Assembly: GCA_026706025.1 (NCBI GenBank)
Contig: JAPOZO010000063.1
Coordinates: 124,001 to 188,000 of the forward strand
Direction: 5' to 3'
Source of the DNA: Candidatus Poribacteria bacterium
GTDB lineage: Bacteria; Poribacteria; WGA-4E; WGA-3G
DNA length: 64,000 nucleotides
Each line of letters begins with the position of its first letter. Position 1 is the first letter of the stretch. The translations under genes and the position numbers were made by a program. Below are positions 2,319-40,121 of the stretch, one piece after another. Under the pieces are notes generated by a model. That model ran no database searches, was not told where the DNA came from, and saw only the letters and a list, made by a program, of their open reading frames with translations.

Positions 2319-3299
2319 ATGATGCGATATACCAAACTTGAAACGAACCATTTCTTTGGCGAAATCATCGGCAAAACCGAAAAAATGCAGCACGTATTCA
2401 CCCAGATTCAAACAGCGGCAGCAGCGGATATTAGCGTCCTGATTCAAGGCGAAACCGGGACCGGCAAAGAACTGATCGCAAAATTGATACACGATAGTAG
2501 TCGTGGGAAAGAAGGACCCTTCGTTGCCATCAATTGTGCTGCAATACCAACCGAATTGATTGAAGGTGAGTTGTTTGGCAATGAACCCGGGGCTTTCACC
2601 GGCGCAATCGCGCGGCGGATCGGATACTTTGAACAAGCGGACACCGGGACACTTTTTCTTGATGAAATTGGGGATATGCCACTCATTTTGCAAGCGAAGC
2701 TGCTGCGTGTCCTACAAGAACGAGAATTTCAAAGGCTCGGTGGCACAAGCACCATCGCCATTGACATCCGGGTTCTGGCTGCTACGAATCAGGGTTTAGA
2801 AGATGCTATCAAAGAAGGATATTTCCGTGAGGATTTGTACCATCGCCTCGCGGCATTCCCTATCACGGTTCCGTCTCTGAGAGATCGGCGCGAAGATATT
2901 CCTATCTTGGCAGATCACTTCCTGAAAAAATATGCCGCAGCCGCCGAAAAACCCATTCGCGACATTTCTACTGATGCCTTACAAATGTTGATGCAGCATG
3001 ACTTTCCCGGTAACGTGCGCGAACTGGAAAACACCATTGAGAGGGCAGTTTTATATGAGACAACGGACCTACTGCAACCCCAAAGCCTCCTTTTACATCA
3101 GACGCAAGAGCGTTCACAATCCGCTGCAAGCAGCCCGACGGGTGCCACTACTATTCTTCCGCTTGACGAAGTTGAACGAAGAGCCATCGTCCACGCACTC
3201 AAAGTGACGGACAATAATGTCCCTGCTGCAGCACAGGCGTTGGGCATCGGCAGATCCACGCTTTATCGGAAATTGAAGGAATATAACCTGCCAGAGTAA
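2319..3299 (+). CDS. Sigma-54-dependent transcriptional activator without receiver domain (cassette copy 1)
   Basis: This is an NtrC-family enhancer-binding protein reduced to AAA+ plus a Fis-type HTH. Seen: Walker A GETGTGKEL, the sigma-54 contact loop GAFTGA, Walker B LFLDEIGD, arginine-finger region FREDLYHRL, and a C-terminal HTH (VPAAAQALGIGRSTLYRKL). Only about 20 residues precede the AAA+ domain, so no phosphorylation or ligand domain is present, as in PspF; its control must lie elsewhere. I chose ATG 2319 over 2304 because it aligns with the start of the paralogue at 6993 and has a CGGAG site upstream. Dyad operators, a sigma-54 promoter and a small-RNA-like unit follow directly. The gene is a recent duplicate of 6993-7958 and is almost identical to it. 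Confidence 0.93.
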   Translation: MMRYTKLETNHFFGEIIGKTEKMQHVFTQIQTAAAADISVLIQGETGTGKELIAKLIHDSSRGKEGPFVAINCAAIPTELIEGELFGNEPGAFTGAIARRIGYFEQADTGTLFLDEIGDMPLILQAKLLRVLQEREFQRLGGTSTIAIDIRVLAATNQGLEDAIKEGYFREDLYHRLAAFPITVPSLRDRREDIPILADHFLKKYAAAAEKPIRDISTDALQMLMQHDFPGNVRELENTIERAVLYETTDLLQPQSLLLHQTQERSQSAASSPTGATTILPLDEVERRAIVHALKVTDNNVPAAAQALGIGRSTLYRKLKEYNLPE

Positions 3300-3302
3300 A
3301 AT

Positions 3303-3341
3303 GTTGTCTCAATATGGGACAGTATCCCATATTGAGACAAC
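3303..3341. promoter_or_regulatory. Paired dyad sites, likely activator-binding enhancer (copy 1)
   Basis: Two perfect 17-bp arms, GTTGTCTCAATATGGGA and its inverse, are separated by 5 bases. Each arm is itself a near-dyad of the form TGTCTCA-N3-TGGGACA. The site starts three bases after the activator stop codon and lies about 180-220 bp upstream of the sigma-54 promoter, the usual place for an enhancer. It could also fold as an RNA hairpin, but it has no T-tract. Confidence 0.65.
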
Positions 3342-3393
3342 ACGCCGGAACCCGTGTTATCAAAGGCTTGGTCCCCGATATGCCTCCCAAACT

Positions 3394-3410
3394 TGTCTCA
3401 TTTTGGGACA
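3394..3410. promoter_or_regulatory. Third TGTCTCA-N3-TGGGACA dyad (copy 1)
   Basis: TGTCTCATTTTGGGACA repeats the dyad of the sites at 3303-3341 with a different 3-base centre. It sits about 110 bp upstream of the sigma-54 promoter. Repetition of the dyad with a variable spacer is what operator sites show, and a chance hairpin would not. Confidence 0.6.
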
Positions 3411-3521
3411 ATTGACGAAAAACAACTTTAAGCGATCCGATCACATCGTGTACAGCCTGGATTCCCCGTACCGCCTTGACTGGTAAAGGTATAATAGGGC
3501 TGGATATCACAATTTCACCGA

Positions 3522-3537
3522 TTGGCACGGTTTTTGC
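3522..3537 (+). promoter_or_regulatory. Sigma-54 promoter (-24/-12), copy 1
   Basis: TTGGCACGGTTTTTGC matches the consensus TGGCACG-N4-TTGC, with GG and GC exactly 10 bases apart. The predicted start is near 3549. It is the natural target of the activator encoded just upstream. Confidence 0.85.
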
Positions 3538-3548
3538 TTAAGTAGTGA

Positions 3549-3661
3549 GGTGTAAGCCAAATCCCTTAGATGTTGGTTGCGTCTTACACGAAGTATCGCG
3601 GGATTTTGGCGTTGCATCGCAGACGGCTCCAACAAGCGTGGCCCTTTGCGATTCGACTTTT
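3549..3661 (+). ncRNA. Predicted sigma-54-driven small RNA (copy 1)
   Basis: The unit starts at the predicted sigma-54 transcription start and has a 5' hairpin (GTGTAAG 3550-3556 with CTTACAC 3583-3589). It ends in a GC-rich hairpin (TCGCA/TGCGA around 3617-3651) followed by CTTTT. The terminator is weaker than in copy 2 because of base changes. No convincing ORF with a ribosome site lies in it. The function is unknown; transcription is inferred from the promoter only. Confidence 0.5.
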
Positions 3662-3665
3662 GGAT

Positions 3666-3694
3666 TTGACAATAACGCCGGAATGTGCTATTCT
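3666..3694 (+). promoter_or_regulatory. Sigma-70 promoter of the structured leader, copy 1
   Basis: TTGACA, a 17-bp spacer and TATTCT. It is conserved base for base in its boxes and spacing in copy 2 (8330-8358) and in architecture at 37974-38002. Confidence 0.8.
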
Positions 3695-3732
3695 TATGTC
3701 GATTCTTGTTGTTGTCATAAATATTCTACAAT

Positions 3733-3942
3733 TGGCAGACTTTCTTTTTTATCCTTTGGAGAAACCCGGACACAAAAGCGTCTCTCCAAAATCCGATCCA
3801 TGCGAGGTAGGTATTGTAAGTACCTACGCCGCGAAGCACTGCCATATCAGTTTTTTAGTCAAGTATGACAGCACTGGTCTCTATTGTATCATAGATGCAG
3901 GTATAATTGGAAACCAGCACGCTATAACAGAGGAAGATTGCC
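3733..3942 (+). ncRNA. Structured leader RNA, copy A (candidate riboswitch or cis-regulatory RNA)
   Basis: A closing stem (TGGCA near 3733 with TTGCC 3938-3942) encloses three hairpins. P2 pairs GTAGGTA with TACCTAC. P3 pairs AGCACTGCCATA with TATGACAGCACT and is imperfect. P4 pairs CTGGTCTCTATT with AATTGGAAACCAG. The same layout recurs at 8398 and 38008 with changed but still pairing stems. Downstream, GCAATC (about 3976) could pair with GATTGC of the closing stem before the ribosome site of gene 4008, suggesting a switch. No known class was recognised. Confidence 0.6.
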
Positions 3943-4007
3943 CCAGAACGCAACACACTTTTTTGCTTTCCCTATGCAATCCCTCTTTTCAAAACAGGAG
4001 AATAACT

Positions 4008-4577
4008 GTGCAAAGAATCAGTTCCAAAACATTACTCACTGTAGCTCTGCTACTGATGAGCAGTTTCATTTTAGCTGTCACCATACTCCCGAATGCTATT
4101 GGTGAACCCAAGATTGAGGAAATGAAGCCTACTGGTCCCGCAGAAAATGTCATAAAAAATGTGACAATAGATGTAGATAACTTTGATGCATCCGCTTACA
4201 TCTCAGCGGAACGTCTTGATGGGAATGGTAATGTGATAGGGTTTGTAGAGGCATCTGTGAGTGCCTATAAAAGCAATGATGATATCGTCTATTATTCCGC
4301 CTCAGCATATAGTAGTGTCCAAGGCTGCGACGAAAATCAGATGCCGAATAGTGCTCGGGCCAATGCATGGGTTAAGGTTCCTGGGAACCCCCGCGCTCAT
4401 GACCAGGGGGGGACTGGCGATTCTTGGATAAATTCGTGTGACCCAAGCTATCAGAGCGCATACGATAGCAACAACCAAAATTTAAATGAAGCTGGTAATG
4501 AGCGTTTAATGGCGGCGGCAGGACTGCAGATCCATGGCCCTCGCCTCGGTGTTAAAATTATAATATCAGGGGTCTAA
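4008..4577 (+). CDS. Secreted protein of unknown function, cassette cargo 1a
   Basis: 189 residues from a GTG start with AGGAG seven bases upstream. The frame is open far upstream to 3570, but that part lies in the leader RNA and is rejected. Seen: a signal peptide (RISSKTLLTVALLLMSSFIL) and a mature domain rich in Ser/Ala/Tyr/Asn (VEASVSAYKSNDDIVYYSAS) that looks like beta-strand repeats with two Cys (QGCDE, NSCDP). It overlaps the next gene by one base (TAATG), so the two are co-translated. I do not recognise a family. Being first behind the structured leader suggests it is a main output of the cassette. Confidence 0.75.
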   Translation: MQRISSKTLLTVALLLMSSFILAVTILPNAIGEPKIEEMKPTGPAENVIKNVTIDVDNFDASAYISAERLDGNGNVIGFVEASVSAYKSNDDIVYYSASAYSSVQGCDENQMPNSARANAWVKVPGNPRAHDQGGTGDSWINSCDPSYQSAYDSNNQNLNEAGNERLMAAAGLQIHGPRLGVKIIISGV

Positions 4578-6992: not shown

Positions 6993-7958
6993 ATGGCATT
7001 ACGAACCGAACTTGAGACGAACCATTCTTTTGGCAAAATCATCGGCAAAACCGAAAAAATGCAGCACGTATTCACCCAGATTCAAACGGCGGCAGCAGGA
7101 GCTATTAGCGTCCTGATTCAAGGCGAAACCGGGACCGGGAAAGAATTGATCGCAAAATCAATACACGATAACAGTCCTCGGAAAGAAGGACCCTTCGTTG
7201 CCATCAATTGTGCTGCAATACCAACCGAATTGATTGAAGGTGAGTTGTTTGGCAATGAACCCGGGGCTTTCACCGGCGCAATCGCGTGGCGGATCGGATA
7301 CTTTGAACAAGCGGACACTGGGACACTTTTTCTTGATGAAATTGGGGATATGCCACTCATTTTGCAAGTGAAGTTGCTGCGCGTCCTACAAGAACGGGAA
7401 TTTCAGAGACTTGGTGGTACAAGAACCATCTCCATTGACATCCGGGTTCTGGCTGCTACGAATCGGGATTTAGAGGATACTATCAGAGATGGATATTTCC
7501 GTGAGGATTTGTACCATCGCCTCGCGGCATTCCCTATCGCGGTTCCGCCTCTAAGAGATCGGCGCGAAGATATTCCTATCTTGGCACAGCACTTCGTAAA
7601 AAAATATGCCGCAGCTGCCGAAAAACCCATTCGCGACATTTCTGCTAATGCCTTACAAATGTTGATGCAGCATGACTTTCCCGGTAACGTGCGCGAACTG
7701 GAAAACACCATTGAGAGGGCAGTTTTATATGAGACAACGGACCTACTGCAACCCCAAAGCCTCCTTTTACATCAGACGCAGGAGCGTTCACAATCCGCTG
7801 CAAGCAGCCCGACGGGTGACACTACTATTCTTCCGCTTGACGAAATCGTCCACGCACTCAAAGTGACGGACAATAATGTCCCCGCTGCAGCACAGGCGTT
7901 GGGCATCGGCAGATCCACACTTTATCGGAAATTGAAGGAATATAACCTGCCACAGTAA
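6993..7958 (+). CDS. Sigma-54-dependent transcriptional activator without receiver domain (cassette copy 2)
   Basis: 321 residues, a near-identical paralogue of 2319-3299. All AAA+ motifs are kept: GETGTGKEL, GAFTGA, LFLDEIGD and FREDLYHRL. The C-terminal Fis-type HTH is unchanged, so both copies should read the same DNA sites. A 15-bp deletion relative to copy 1 removes VERRA just before the HTH (LPLDE then IVHALK), which may shorten the linker helix. ATG 6993 has AAGGAG just upstream. Differences are scattered substitutions, consistent with a duplication followed by drift under selection. The dyad sites and sigma-54 promoter follow as in copy 1. Confidence 0.93.
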   Translation: MALRTELETNHSFGKIIGKTEKMQHVFTQIQTAAAGAISVLIQGETGTGKELIAKSIHDNSPRKEGPFVAINCAAIPTELIEGELFGNEPGAFTGAIAWRIGYFEQADTGTLFLDEIGDMPLILQVKLLRVLQEREFQRLGGTRTISIDIRVLAATNRDLEDTIRDGYFREDLYHRLAAFPIAVPPLRDRREDIPILAQHFVKKYAAAAEKPIRDISANALQMLMQHDFPGNVRELENTIERAVLYETTDLLQPQSLLLHQTQERSQSAASSPTGDTTILPLDEIVHALKVTDNNVPAAAQALGIGRSTLYRKLKEYNLPQ

Positions 7959-7961
7959 AAT

Positions 7962-8000
7962 GTTGTCTCAATATGGGACAGTATCCCATATTGAGACAAC
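7962..8000. promoter_or_regulatory. Paired dyad sites, likely activator-binding enhancer (copy 2)
   Basis: The same 17-bp arms (GTTGTCTCAATATGGGA and its inverse) and 5-base centre as at 3303-3341, with no substitution, although the flanks have diverged. It begins directly after the activator stop codon. Confidence 0.65.
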
Positions 8001-8052
8001 ACGTCGGAACCCGTGTTATCAAAGGCTTGGTCCCCGATATGCCTCCCAAACT

Positions 8053-8069
8053 TGTCTCATTTTGGGATA
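8053..8069. promoter_or_regulatory. Third dyad site, one base decayed (copy 2)
   Basis: TGTCTCATTTTGGGATA differs from the copy 1 site only in the last half-site (GGGATA instead of GGGACA). It may bind more weakly. Confidence 0.5.
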
Positions 8070-8181
8070 ATTGACGAAAAACAACTTTAAGCGATCCGAT
8101 CACATCGTGTACAGCCTGGATCCCGCGTACCGCCTTGACGGACAAGGTATAATAGGGCAATGATAAGAACGTTTTCACCGA

Positions 8182-8197
8182 TTGGCACGGTTCTTGC
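8182..8197 (+). promoter_or_regulatory. Sigma-54 promoter (-24/-12), copy 2
   Basis: TTGGCACGGTTCTTGC, with GG and GC 10 bases apart. The one change from copy 1 falls in the non-critical spacer. Predicted start near 8209. Confidence 0.85.
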
Positions 8198-8208
8198 TTA
8201 AGTTATTA

Positions 8209-8326
8209 GTGAAGTGTAAGCCAAATCCTTAGATATTAGTTGTGTCTTACACAAGGTATTGAGGCATTTTGGTGTTGCATCGCAGACTGTTCCAACAGAC
8301 GTGGTCTCTCGCGATGCGACTTTTTT
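8209..8326 (+). ncRNA. Predicted sigma-54-driven small RNA with terminator (copy 2)
   Basis: A 5' hairpin (GTGTAAG 8214-8220 with CTTACAC 8246-8252) opens the unit. A single-stranded middle follows. The end is a strong terminator: GCATCGCAGAC (8277-8287) pairs with GTCT and GCGATGC (8304-8317), then TTTTTT at 8321-8326. The length of about 118 nt and the lack of a credible ORF fit a small regulatory RNA. A separate sigma-70 promoter starts four bases after the T-run. The arrangement (activator gene, sigma-54 promoter, short terminated RNA) resembles luxO-qrr by organisation only. Confidence 0.6.
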
Positions 8327-8329
8327 CGT

Positions 8330-8358
8330 TTGACAATAACGCTGGAACGTGCTATTCT
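8330..8358 (+). promoter_or_regulatory. Sigma-70 promoter of the structured leader, copy 2
   Basis: TTGACA, 17-bp spacer, TATTCT; same boxes as at 3666-3694. Confidence 0.8.
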
Positions 8359-8397
8359 TAGGCATGTTTCCTACTGTTGTCATAAATATTTTTGTAA

Positions 8398-8602
8398 ATG
8401 GCAGCCTCCAAAAGTTTTAGAGGTGCGTCACCGGTGCGCCACCACCAAGCGATGCGGCACTGCCATAATCGGGCTATGACAGTGCTAACTTAATTGTAGC
8501 ACAAAACATCCATGTCTTGGCAACTTTTAAGTTAGCACCTTATACAGAATACAGAGGATTGCCACAGAACGCAAAATACCTTCTATCCGTATCAGGCAAT
8601 CC
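8398..8602 (+). ncRNA. Structured leader RNA, copy B (candidate riboswitch or cis-regulatory RNA)
   Basis: The closing stem pairs TGGCA (8399-8403) with TTGCCA (8539-8544). P2 is a GGTGCG/GCGCC-type hairpin near 8422-8443. P3 pairs GCACTG..CATA with TATG..CAGTGC (8457-8484). P4 pairs GCTAACTTAA with TTAAGTTAGC perfectly, although its sequence differs wholly from copies A and C. The 3' strand GGATTGCC (8536-8543) is also perfectly complementary to GGCAATCC (8595-8602), which lies 8 bases before the AGGAG of the next gene: two mutually exclusive pairings, as expected of a switch. Confidence 0.65.
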
Positions 8603-8623
8603 GAAAATAAAGGAGAAAATCGA

Positions 8624-8974
8624 ATAAAAAAGTCTTTGTCTCAAATCATTGCCATTGCCTGCATCCTCACTATAGGGTTCATCGGGCTCTTTTCACAAGT
8701 GAAAAGCACAGAGGCTAACCCCAGCCATAGATCGCAAACGCATCAACTCGTTACTTGTTTAAAAAAAGAGGTACTGGGGGGTTTGCCTTTTTATAACATT
8801 TGTGACAGTTGGACAGAGTCCTTAGATCCTGTAGATGTTTACCCCGATCCACACGAAATCGATGCCCATGGCAGGCACGTTCACGGACCTCACGGTTTTA
8901 AGAAAAATCAACATGTCTACGACAATGTTACCATGACGGTGACTGGTTGTAGTGATTGCGATGAGGATGATTAA
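8624..8974 (+). CDS. Small secreted His/Asp-rich protein with apparent ATA start, cassette cargo 2a
   Basis: A signal peptide of the form KKSLSQIIAIACILTIGFIG is complete only if translation starts at ATA 8624, which lies 8 bases after a good AGGAG. The first conventional start is TTG 8636, which has no ribosome site at a proper distance and would lose the KKS charges. Either a rare AUA start is used or the ATG has mutated. The mature protein (about 90 residues) has a Cys pair (TCLKK, NICDS), a His/Asp cluster (DPHEIDAHGRHVHGPHGF) and an acidic CSDCDEDD end, suggesting metal binding. It sits directly behind leader copy B. No family recognised. Confidence 0.65.
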   Translation: MKKSLSQIIAIACILTIGFIGLFSQVKSTEANPSHRSQTHQLVTCLKKEVLGGLPFYNICDSWTESLDPVDVYPDPHEIDAHGRHVHGPHGFKKNQHVYDNVTMTVTGCSDCDEDD

Positions 8975-10323: not shown

Positions 10324-12720
10324 ATGCTCAACCGCTCAATGCTACTCAAATCGGTTCTCCTCGGTGGTTTTCTCTGTGTTGTCTTCTGGATTCGTGTTCA
10401 GAGTGTCGGCGCAATACCAGAAGGGCATTTCACAGGCGTTGACGCTTATCTCTACTATTTTCAGGCACAACAGATCTCGGATCAGGGGACATTACCCGCC
10501 CGCGATATGCACCGGTGGCTGCCCCTCGGTAGGGATAACGAGCAACTCCTCAACCTCTACAGTTATACCCTTGCATACACTCACAAAACTGTGGCGTGGC
10601 TATACCCTTCTGTCACACTTTATGATGTTACCGTCTACATGCCTGTGGTCTGCTTTTGTATCGGGATCGGCGCGCTCTGTCTCTATCTCACTTGCTCCTT
10701 CGGGCTGCTCACTGCGAGTCTCGTCGGTGTGCTTTTGGCAACGCTCCCGGGGGCCATCAATAGAAGCACTGCTGGCTTCGGCGACCGAGATGCCTACTGT
10801 CTGATGCTCGGTCTCCTTGCCGTTGTGACCTATCTTGTCTCTTTCCAAGCAGGAACACCCCGCAAACGGCTGATTTGGACGATTGTGAGTGGCTTTCTTG
10901 TCTTTCTGGGCGGTATGAGTTGGGAAGGTTTCGGTGTCTTCCTGAGTGTGATTATGGTTGTGGAGCTGTGGCGATTCCTCTCTTCCGAAAGCGAAAACAA
11001 CTTCGGCCTCTATCTGCTGTGGGTGTGCTGCTTTGTTCCAACACTCTATCTTGCCTCACCGGGCTATCGGAACGGCTACGGTTTTGCCGAACACCTCTTT
11101 GCGTTTGTGCTTGTCCCACCCGTTGTGCTTTTAGGCATACGCGCCCTTCGGTACCTGTTGCTGTCAAAAGTAGAAAAACTCCGCCCGCATGCCCGCACCC
11201 TTGCGCTCGGAGTGATGGTGGCAACCGTGTGCCTTGCAATCGGGTATGTTTTGATACAACGAAACACCTTCGCAGAAACGACCGTGCCGTTGAGTCAAAC
11301 CCCCTTGATGCAAAGCATTGGTGAACTCGTACACACAGATTCAAACTATTGGAGAATGCTCTACGGATATATCTTTGTATTAGGCATCATGGGACTCATG
11401 ACGACAGCCATGCACCAGTGGAAAAACTATGGTGCCCACCTGATCCTGCCGCTTACGCTTTTTACATTAACCACCTTTTTTAGAGAATACCCTGATAGCT
11501 GGTGCGGGACACAGAATACCAATATCCTCTTTTTCATTGCTATCGCTGCAACTGTGATGACGATCATGTTTATGGCTTGGCGGCGTGACTTCCGTCCGAA
11601 AAATGAACTTGCTTCTGTAGCCGCCATTGCATGGTTTCTGATTTGGACAGCCCTCTCGCGTGATGCAGAACGATATTCCATCTTTACCAGCCCTGTCCTC
11701 GCTTTCTTTACCGCGGAACTCATACAATTCTGTAGCGCGAAACTCTGTAACGTGAAACTGATCCAAAAACTCAGCGGACGGATACCACAGCGGGTCCTGA
11801 AAACAAGCTTGGCACTCGCAATGCTTGCAGTTCTTATATGGATCCCTTCTCCATTCGGATACGCCCAGAAAATCCGGCATGCGACACATGTGCGCAGAAG
11901 CATGCCGATAAACAGCACCGTTGCTGAAACTTTTCAGTGGATGAAAGCAGAACTCTCACACTCGGCTGTCGTCGCTACGGACTGGATACACGGTAGCCAA
12001 CTCAACGTCCTTGGCGGTGTCAAAACGATTACGGACCAGGACACTTTCATACAGCATTGGATCCATCTTTATTACCGATACCTCTTCTGTGGACAATCTG
12101 AAAAAGAATTCCTTCAATTCCTAAAAAGCCACGGGGCAACCCACTTGATGTTAACTGAAGTCGACATCGTTGCGGATGCACTCACCTATTCTGTTATTGG
12201 AAGTCCATCCGAACACGACAAGCACTTTGAAATCATTGTACTCCGAGACCCAATATACGAAAAAGGAAATATCTTTCTATTTCCTGAAAAAGCAACACCC
12301 TTTTTCGGGAACATCCAGATTGATATGCATCCAGAAAACAACACAGCAACCACCGCTATACTTGTCCGCAAAAAAGGGATAGCGACGACTCTCCCTTACG
12401 TCGCTTTTGAGAATAAAAAACGCACCACCTCCGAAAATCAAGACGGGTCAAAAACAGGAGGCATCCTCCTCTATTTTGATGAGTCTCAGAAGTTCCAAAA
12501 AGGCTATTATGTCCCGCCCATCGCATGGGAGAACGTCGCGATCCGCCTGTTCCTACGAGGCATCCCAAGTGACGCGTTTAAGCTTGTTTACGAAACTCAA
12601 AAAACTGGCGGAACGCCTGTCAAAGTTTGGGAAATACACTACCCTCCCGACATCCAACCGGATCTAAAATACCTCAAAACCGGTTTCTCTGAAATAGACG
12701 AGGATTTACAACTGCAATAA
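10324..12720 (+). CDS. STT3/PglB-like oligosaccharyltransferase
   Basis: 798 residues: about 13 hydrophobic segments, then a soluble C-terminal domain from about residue 530. Family features: the first acidic loop HFTGVDAYLYYFQAQQ, and INRSTAGFGDRDAYCLML, which matches the second acidic motif (R-S-x-x-G-x-x-D). The segment VVATDWIHGSQLNVLGG lies where the WWDYG acceptor-sensing motif belongs but is strongly degenerate. STT3-type enzymes transfer a lipid-linked glycan to Asn of secreted proteins, facing outside the cytoplasm. It lies in one operon with three small secreted proteins, which may be substrates (inference), and 2 bp before a CDP-alcohol phosphotransferase fragment. Bacterial STT3 outside Epsilonproteobacteria is uncommon but known. 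Confidence 0.75.
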   Translation: MLNRSMLLKSVLLGGFLCVVFWIRVQSVGAIPEGHFTGVDAYLYYFQAQQISDQGTLPARDMHRWLPLGRDNEQLLNLYSYTLAYTHKTVAWLYPSVTLYDVTVYMPVVCFCIGIGALCLYLTCSFGLLTASLVGVLLATLPGAINRSTAGFGDRDAYCLMLGLLAVVTYLVSFQAGTPRKRLIWTIVSGFLVFLGGMSWEGFGVFLSVIMVVELWRFLSSESENNFGLYLLWVCCFVPTLYLASPGYRNGYGFAEHLFAFVLVPPVVLLGIRALRYLLLSKVEKLRPHARTLALGVMVATVCLAIGYVLIQRNTFAETTVPLSQTPLMQSIGELVHTDSNYWRMLYGYIFVLGIMGLMTTAMHQWKNYGAHLILPLTLFTLTTFFREYPDSWCGTQNTNILFFIAIAATVMTIMFMAWRRDFRPKNELASVAAIAWFLIWTALSRDAERYSIFTSPVLAFFTAELIQFCSAKLCNVKLIQKLSGRIPQRVLKTSLALAMLAVLIWIPSPFGYAQKIRHATHVRRSMPINSTVAETFQWMKAELSHSAVVATDWIHGSQLNVLGGVKTITDQDTFIQHWIHLYYRYLFCGQSEKEFLQFLKSHGATHLMLTEVDIVADALTYSVIGSPSEHDKHFEIIVLRDPIYEKGNIFLFPEKATPFFGNIQIDMHPENNTATTAILVRKKGIATTLPYVAFENKKRTTSENQDGSKTGGILLYFDESQKFQKGYYVPPIAWENVAIRLFLRGIPSDAFKLVYETQKTGGTPVKVWEIHYPPDIQPDLKYLKTGFSEIDEDLQLQ

Positions 12721-37973: not shown

Positions 37974-38002
37974 TTGACATTTTTTGGCGTTTTTTCTACA
38001 AT
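37974..38002 (+). promoter_or_regulatory. Sigma-70 promoter of the third structured leader
   Basis: TTGACA, 17-bp spacer, TACAAT. Predicted start at about 38009, one base into the leader fold. Confidence 0.75.
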
Positions 38003-38007
38003 AAAAG

Positions 38008-38170
38008 ATGGCAGTTACATTTTCGTTAGTGCGCCGCAGGTGTTACCGCACCCGCGACGCTTAGCACTGCCATAGGTCAGGTATGACAGCGCTGGTTTCT
38101 ATTGTATCAGATAACACGATTTGTGTGTCATCTATAAATGGAGACCAGCACCTATATGGAAAGATTGCCA
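38008..38170 (+). ncRNA. Structured leader RNA, copy C
   Basis: Same fold as copies A and B. The closing stem pairs ATGGCA (38008) with TTGCCA (38165-38170). P2 is a strong GC hairpin (GCGCCGC-AGGTG with CACC-CGCGACGC). P3 pairs AGCACTGCCATA with TATGACAGCGCT. P4 pairs GCTGGTTTCTATT with AATGGAGACCAGC, with two G-U pairs. A following hairpin reuses GATT (GATT..TCAC with GTGA..AATC). There is no sigma-54 cassette here. The next gene is the GMC oxidoreductase 306 bp downstream; between them lies no credible ORF. Confidence 0.6.
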
Positions 38171-38475
38171 TCACTCTGAAACGCGGTGACGAATCCTTGT
38201 CGTCTCCGTTTCTCTTGCATAAGCACTCCCCGTATAGAGAAACACTGACCCCAAAACACGTATATCAAGCAGTTTTGAGATTTTATATGTTCGGGTGTTG
38301 TCATGCTCTCACTTATGAGATGCAGGCATCCGTAGGTAACGCGTTGCCTAATAATATCTCTTTATTAACTGCAGATGATGATTTTGAAGTAATCATTTCT
38401 TTGTGGAGGCACGTTTGGAAGTCGTGCTTTCTCTAAATATACGAGGAATCAGAACGGTTATAGCGTAGATACCAA

Positions 38476-40121
<1,646 letters not shown>

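Follow-up and report, generated by a model that had tools for sequence, protein, structure and literature searches.

Poribacteria are uncultured sponge symbionts. A stretch of 64,000 nt from a Candidatus Poribacteria MAG (the window) carries what a preliminary description took to be three copies of a structured leader RNA with covarying stems, a candidate new riboswitch. Does this repeat encode a real RNA, does that RNA belong to a class already known, and could it act as a switch? Our analysis indicates that it represents a real, apparently undescribed class of cis-regulatory RNA. All window features discussed below lie on the forward strand.

Occurrence and Identity

The copies reported at 3733, 8398, and 38008 (here A, B, and C) are all present, and the closing stem described as TGGCA/TTGCCA is found in each of them as TGGCA/TTGCC(A). 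The window contains the motif CACTGCCATA-N-TATGACAG three times, and 100 shuffles never produce it. By exact pattern, six copies were found in the source genome. Of 85 genomes from the phylum, 50 contain the pattern, every one of them belonging to the source genome's own taxonomic family. The preliminary description had proposed that a covariance model be built and related genomes scanned. A model built on 19 sequences (R1) detects 13 copies in the source genome at E < 1e-7, and a refined model built on 103 sequences (R2) yields approximately 355 matches across 56 genomes of one poribacterial family, a column sum of which opposite-strand shadows could account for a few. With R2, the RNA is carried by 56 of the 59 genomes inside the source genome's family, in up to 18 copies per genome, and by none of the 26 genomes of other poribacterial families.

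Occurrence outside the Poribacteria was considered and rejected: a pattern scan matched other phyla and viral contigs, with model scores at the level of chance (best E = 0.013 among 27 non-poribacterial pattern-match genomes under the covariance model). A known Rfam family was likewise ruled out as the identity of the RNA. A tRNA was the sole match of Rfam 15 on the whole window, with no family above the gathering threshold for the leader RNA; a permissive search with copy B (E ≤ 10) produced two sRNA hits of 13 bits, both on the opposite strand, and no family for the element; and at E ≤ 1 nothing matched the element at loci of other subtypes. The earlier statement that the RNA could be matched to no known class is borne out by these searches. 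No riboswitch or structured RNA of Poribacteria was found in the literature searched, although absence there and in Rfam is not proof of novelty.

Fold and Covariation

The RNA comprises a helix, P1, that encloses four hairpins, P2 to P5. Three hairpins had been described; there are four because CTGCCATA-N7-TATGACAG forms a hairpin of its own, and the hairpin first called P4 is P5 here. Among 98 distinct copies, 32 of the 39 modelled pairs change on both sides with pairing kept, compared to 17.6 in shuffles, and standard pairs fill 92.9% of the cells over the 39 pairs, compared to 30–47% when the partners are slid by one to three columns. The alignment of these 98 sequences was fitted to the model, which somewhat favours covariation; an unfitted MAFFT alignment already has double changes in 11 of 23 pairs. 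Both-side changes are found in all five helices, including 9 of 10 pairs in P3, 10 of 11 in P5, and all four modelled pairs in P2, for which a change on both sides had been claimed. The broad alignment was run as a refutation test of the covarying stems, and they survived it, with compensating changes in every helix.

The compensated difference claimed for P5 (B, GCTAACTT.../...AAGTTAGC; C, GCTGGTTTC.../...GGAGACCAGC) is real, and it divides the whole family into two subtypes, with a P5 base of GCTGG/CCAGC in type I and GCTAAC/GTTAGC in type II. The P4 stem CATA/TATG becomes CATT/AATG in locus L116 and CAAA/TTTG in L109 and L098. P4 also contains a C.A mismatch in 92 of the 98 copies, a constancy that is partly selection, since the first loci were chosen by an exact pattern containing the mismatch. 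On the opposite strand this mismatch would be a G.U pair, which raised the idea that the RNA is encoded there. The excess of G.U over A.C cells (267 versus 104) shows that the given strand is the RNA strand, and promoters and gene orientation also rule out the opposite one.

Four loci of the source genome (L088, L089, L091, and L092) form a divergent subtype in which P1 and P3 are replaced and a strong GGAGACGG/CCGTCTCC hairpin comes next; AAAAATTGGG and CCCAATTTTT flank at least some of these copies.

The Three Copies in the Window

Copy B (8398–8563) is preceded by a promoter at 8329–8358 ((T)TTGACA at 8329–8335, a 17-nt spacer, and TATTCT at 8353–8358). Its 5' strand, ATGGCAG (8398–8404), can pair either with 8556–8563 to form P1 or with CTGCCAT (8460–8466) to form a competing helix, Q. 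Between the P1 strands lie P2 (8405–8423), P3 (8425–8455), P4 (8460–8482; CTGcCATA and TATGaCAG, with the conserved C.A mismatch, around the hypervariable 7-nt loop ATCGGGC at 8468–8474), and the long hairpin P5 (8483–8537). The 3' strand of P1, GGATTGCC (8556–8563), doubles as a strand of a second competing helix, R, whose downstream partner is GGCAATCC (8595–8602); this 8-nt match is reached by 2 of 100 shuffles and is paired in the minimum-energy fold. A Shine-Dalgarno sequence, AAGGAG (8610–8615), leads to the first gene, which encodes a small exported protein (8636–8974, TTG start as called). The ATG of the homologue at L131 aligns with ATA at 8624, so the copy B gene may start at TTG 8636 or have a weak or altered start. 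The last gene of the operon (10324–12720) encodes a 798-amino-acid STT3-like glycosyltransferase.

Copy A (3732–3942) has its promoter at 3665–3694 ((T)TTGACA at 3665–3671, a 17-nt spacer, and TATTCT at 3689–3694). P1 is formed by TTGGCAG (3732–3738) and 3936–3942, enclosing P3 (3802–3832), P4 (3839–3871, with a 17-nt loop), and P5 (3872–3919). The P2 region holds a large insertion, and the model match (55.9 bits) covers 3775–3942 although the P1 strand begins at 3732. The R partner of the P1 3' strand, GCAATCC (3976–3982, a 6-nt match), is followed by a Shine-Dalgarno sequence, AGGAG (3996–4000), and by a gene for an exported protein with a GTG start at 4008, extending to 4577.

Upstream of copies A and B, approximately 720 bp that include the promoters (3001–3725 and 7675–8390) are 90% identical, and A and B are therefore not independent. 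Exactly where the leaders begin, the similarity breaks off, and the leaders themselves differ strongly. The arrangement suggests duplication of the promoter segments and their fusion to different leader-operon cassettes. An inverted repeat, TTTGACAATAAC...GTTGTCATAA, spans both promoters (3665–3720 and 8329–8385); minimum-energy folds show that its right arm could also pair with TATGACAG of P4.

A duplicated segment that ends at the leader, together with up to 18 copies per genome and the recurrence of type I leaders with the same methyltransferase, would suit a MITE-like mobile or repeated DNA element, with a palindromic, RNA-like hairpin and no regulatory role. We regard this as very improbable, since the helices are kept despite sequence divergence, orientation is biased, promoters stand at fixed distances, and a Shine-Dalgarno sequence is built into P1 in some copies.

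Copy C (38008–38169) scores 120.7 bits. Its promoter, TTGACA-17-TACAAT (37974–38002), ends 5 nt before P1 (38008–38014 with 38163–38169), which encloses P3 (38031–38060), P4 (38067–38089), and P5 (38091–38149). By sequence inspection, CTATATGG (38152–38159) may form a downstream helix with CCGTATAG (38230–38237), spanning 38152–38237, with a type I counterpart in CTATAGGG/CCCTATAG. The next clear gene, for a GMC oxidoreductase (cholesterol-oxidase-like; 38476–39915) with an N-terminal Tat-like motif recognized by eye, begins approximately 310 nt past P1, so that C is not an immediate leader.

Position Relative to Promoters and Genes

The consensus sigma-70 promoter claimed for each copy was recovered in all three, with 10 of 12 consensus positions in A and B, 11 of 12 in C, and 17-nt spacers throughout. 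Across the family, a promoter matching at least 9 of 12 positions lies within 150 nt upstream of 82% of copies, versus 12% of random positions. The end of the -10 box is often 5–12 nt ahead of P1 (5 nt in C) and otherwise about 30–60 nt ahead; transcripts predicted from these promoters would start at P1 or about 30–60 nt before it. The next open reading frame of at least 80 amino acids lies on the same strand as the leader in 57 cases and on the opposite strand in five. Seven copies (at L119, L120, L137 twice, L140 in its second copy, L102, and L141) have the Shine-Dalgarno sequence within the 3' strand of P1 and the start codon a few nucleotides on, as in AAAAGGAGTGCC-taac-ATG opposite the 5'-end GGCAGCTC. 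In the other type II copies, the start codon follows P1 by about 60–100 nt, and in the copies preceding methyltransferase genes by 121–137 nt; in type I and in C, a long additional 3' stretch separates the RNA from the gene. Tandem leaders ahead of one gene, the first scoring weaker, are found at L118 (762–903 and 1001–1163) and L123 (779–923 and 1066–1225).

The promoters, the co-orientation with genes, and the Shine-Dalgarno sequence inside P1 in some copies identify the RNA as a leader. A family of trans-acting small RNA genes, located upstream of other genes by chance, would also account for a strong promoter, a compact fold, and the terminator-like 3' end of type I (CTGTCATTTTT). In its favour, type I, C, and the divergent L088–L092 copies have long conserved 3' parts, often with no gene within 200 nt, and some type I copies precede remnants. 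This origin is nevertheless unlikely, given the strict orientation relative to genes, the Shine-Dalgarno sequence inside P1, the type II copies that reach a gene within about 60–100 nt, and a search for an intrinsic terminator behind copy C that found none.

Competing Helices

The alternative pairing proposed for the 3' closing strand was confirmed in both copies for which it was claimed: GGATTGCC (8556–8563) with GGCAATCC (8595–8602) in B, and GATTGC(C) (3936–3942) with GCAATC(C) (3976–3982) in A. The R partners of A and B sit just upstream of the Shine-Dalgarno sequence, as they do in many other copies. Of the 31 type II copies, 18 have an R match of at least 6 nt, with a compensated change in L103 (GGATTACC/GGTAATCC). 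Type I copies, which are close relatives of one another, instead offer CTGTCA(T) downstream as a partner for the P4 strand TATGACAG (21 of 29).

Helix Q joins the 5' strand (A/T)TGG(C/T)AG to the P4 strand CTGCCA(T/A), and 75 of 103 copies allow at least six of its seven pairs. It is retained where P1 does not use this strand, in the copies with the Shine-Dalgarno sequence in P1 (ATGGTAG). In the divergent L088, L089, and L092, whose P1 has other letters, Q is present in compensated form (TTGGCA/TGCCAA), with one mismatch in L091. Q and P4, which have a strand in common, are mutually exclusive, as are R and P1. Minimum-energy folds contain Q in A, B, and C, and P1 with P4 in L001.

The conservation of these competing helices, along with covariation in some parts of them, makes a two-state switch likely. 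Constrained folding of the two states gave no consistent difference at the Shine-Dalgarno sequence, so that the output of switching is a matter of inference. Of the riboswitch reading first put forward, the structured and covarying leader, the promoter, and the recurrent alternative pairing hold; an effect on the ribosome site did not emerge consistently from folding.

The P4 Loop

The P4 loop is 7 nt long in 80 of 99 copies and 16 nt long in 11. The 80 loops of 7 nt comprise 53 different sequences, around which the P4 stem and its mismatch are nearly invariant, and loop positions 1 and 7 avoid pairing. No complement of the loop was found within its own leader, and no kissing or covarying loop pairs were found across the 98 copies. 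Dimerization through palindromic loops was rejected as well, such loops showing no excess (15 of 53, 12.4 expected).

A possible, less favoured alternative is that the RNA acts in cis as a leader but is read by a protein or a second RNA; a regulator might recognize the constant core (P4 and the P5 loop AATTGTA.CA), or the variable P4 loop might let pairing partners address copies singly. The diversity of loops that have no complement in their own leader, the near invariance of the P4 stem and mismatch, and the great diversity of downstream genes agree with this possibility. The loop variation could be neutral, however, given that the loops of P2 and P3 are variable too, and a ligand switch explains the competing helices equally well.

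Genes Downstream

In the sample, ten type I leaders stand ahead of DNA methyltransferase genes that all belong to one adenine-specific (type III-like) family. Behind the other leaders, 29 of 33 genes within 150 nt encode a hydrophobic N-terminal segment, versus 10 of 25 larger window ORFs (our own count from the gene list), and nearly all of these close genes are thus predicted to encode exported or anchored proteins. Most genes behind leaders match no Pfam family, and they have no obvious metabolic pathway in common.

Leader-led operons often go on to a glycosyltransferase, such as STT3 (PF02516) at L087 and L131 and PMT_2 at L118. Among the best 150 listed homologues of the 798-amino-acid protein of the copy B operon, at least 15 have a same-strand leader 1.2–4.2 kb upstream, compared to 0.36 expected, and none of the 150 has one on the opposite strand. 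For the window protein, neither Pfam nor a PDB search gave a match; its putative assignment to STT3 is based on homologues, which match Pfam STT3, and on a weak NCBIfam match to the archaeal-type enzyme (archaeo_STT3). The family of STT3-like glycosyltransferases is expanded in these genomes, each of which has up to 13 matches.

A Proposed Mechanism

What was found is a conserved, structured 5'-leader RNA with covariation, as expected of a riboswitch. On balance, we consider these RNAs to be a class of cis-acting leaders, most likely of orphan riboswitch type, in which a cue would shift the balance between P1/P4 and Q/R. The cue, probably a small molecule bound at the junction, would stabilize P1 and P4, and in its absence the RNA would fold into Q and R (or into the helices of type I), with a change in expression of the gene. 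In copies with the Shine-Dalgarno sequence in P1, formation of P1 should block or lower translation. Counting against a riboswitch are the lack of a consistent difference at the Shine-Dalgarno sequence in constrained folding, the restriction to one family, which would be atypical of a riboswitch that senses a common metabolite, the absence of an obvious shared pathway among the downstream genes, and the long 3' sequence of type I and C copies. More speculatively, and with rather low confidence, the RNA may be a new riboswitch class that responds to a signal or an envelope precursor and coordinates exported proteins, STT3/PMT glycosylation, and DNA methylation family-wide, the P4 loop serving as an address for each copy.

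The regulon marked by the leader RNA consists of genes for exported proteins, operons for STT3/PMT glycosyltransferases, and DNA methyltransferase genes. The many copies, the subtypes with the Shine-Dalgarno sequence in P1, and the covariance model make an in vitro ligand search practical without culture of the host.

Comparison with Known Systems

The lysine riboswitch (RF00168) is a metabolite riboswitch with a multi-helix junction and kissing loops. The leader RNA resembles it in that P1 closes a multi-hairpin junction, in that a P1 strand is common to a competing downstream helix, and in its leader position; it differs in having no Rfam match, no detected kissing loops, and unrelated genes. 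T-box leaders (RF00230) combine a variable recognition element with competing helices. They too are leaders with a variable element and competing helices, but the RNA described here has no Rfam match and its genes are not aminoacyl-tRNA or amino-acid genes.

Like the c-di-GMP riboswitches (GEMM, RF01051), the leader RNA occurs in many copies per genome ahead of diverse, often exported, products. It differs from them in architecture and in Rfam status, with no RF01051 match in the window or, at E ≤ 10, in copy B; a search of 58 genomes for RF01051 returned nothing, but neither did the control genomes, which makes it uninformative. GGDEF domains (PF00990) were absent from the source genome (6.3 Mb, 96% complete) and detected in 8 of 14 controls, making c-di-GMP unlikely as the ligand.

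Comparative genomics has yielded orphan riboswitch candidates, covarying leader RNAs for which the ligand is still missing (PMC7266159). Compared to these, the poribacterial leader RNA is distinctive in its limitation to one family, its up to 18 copies per genome, and its hypervariable loop of fixed length; in the kind of evidence and in status, it is closely akin to them.
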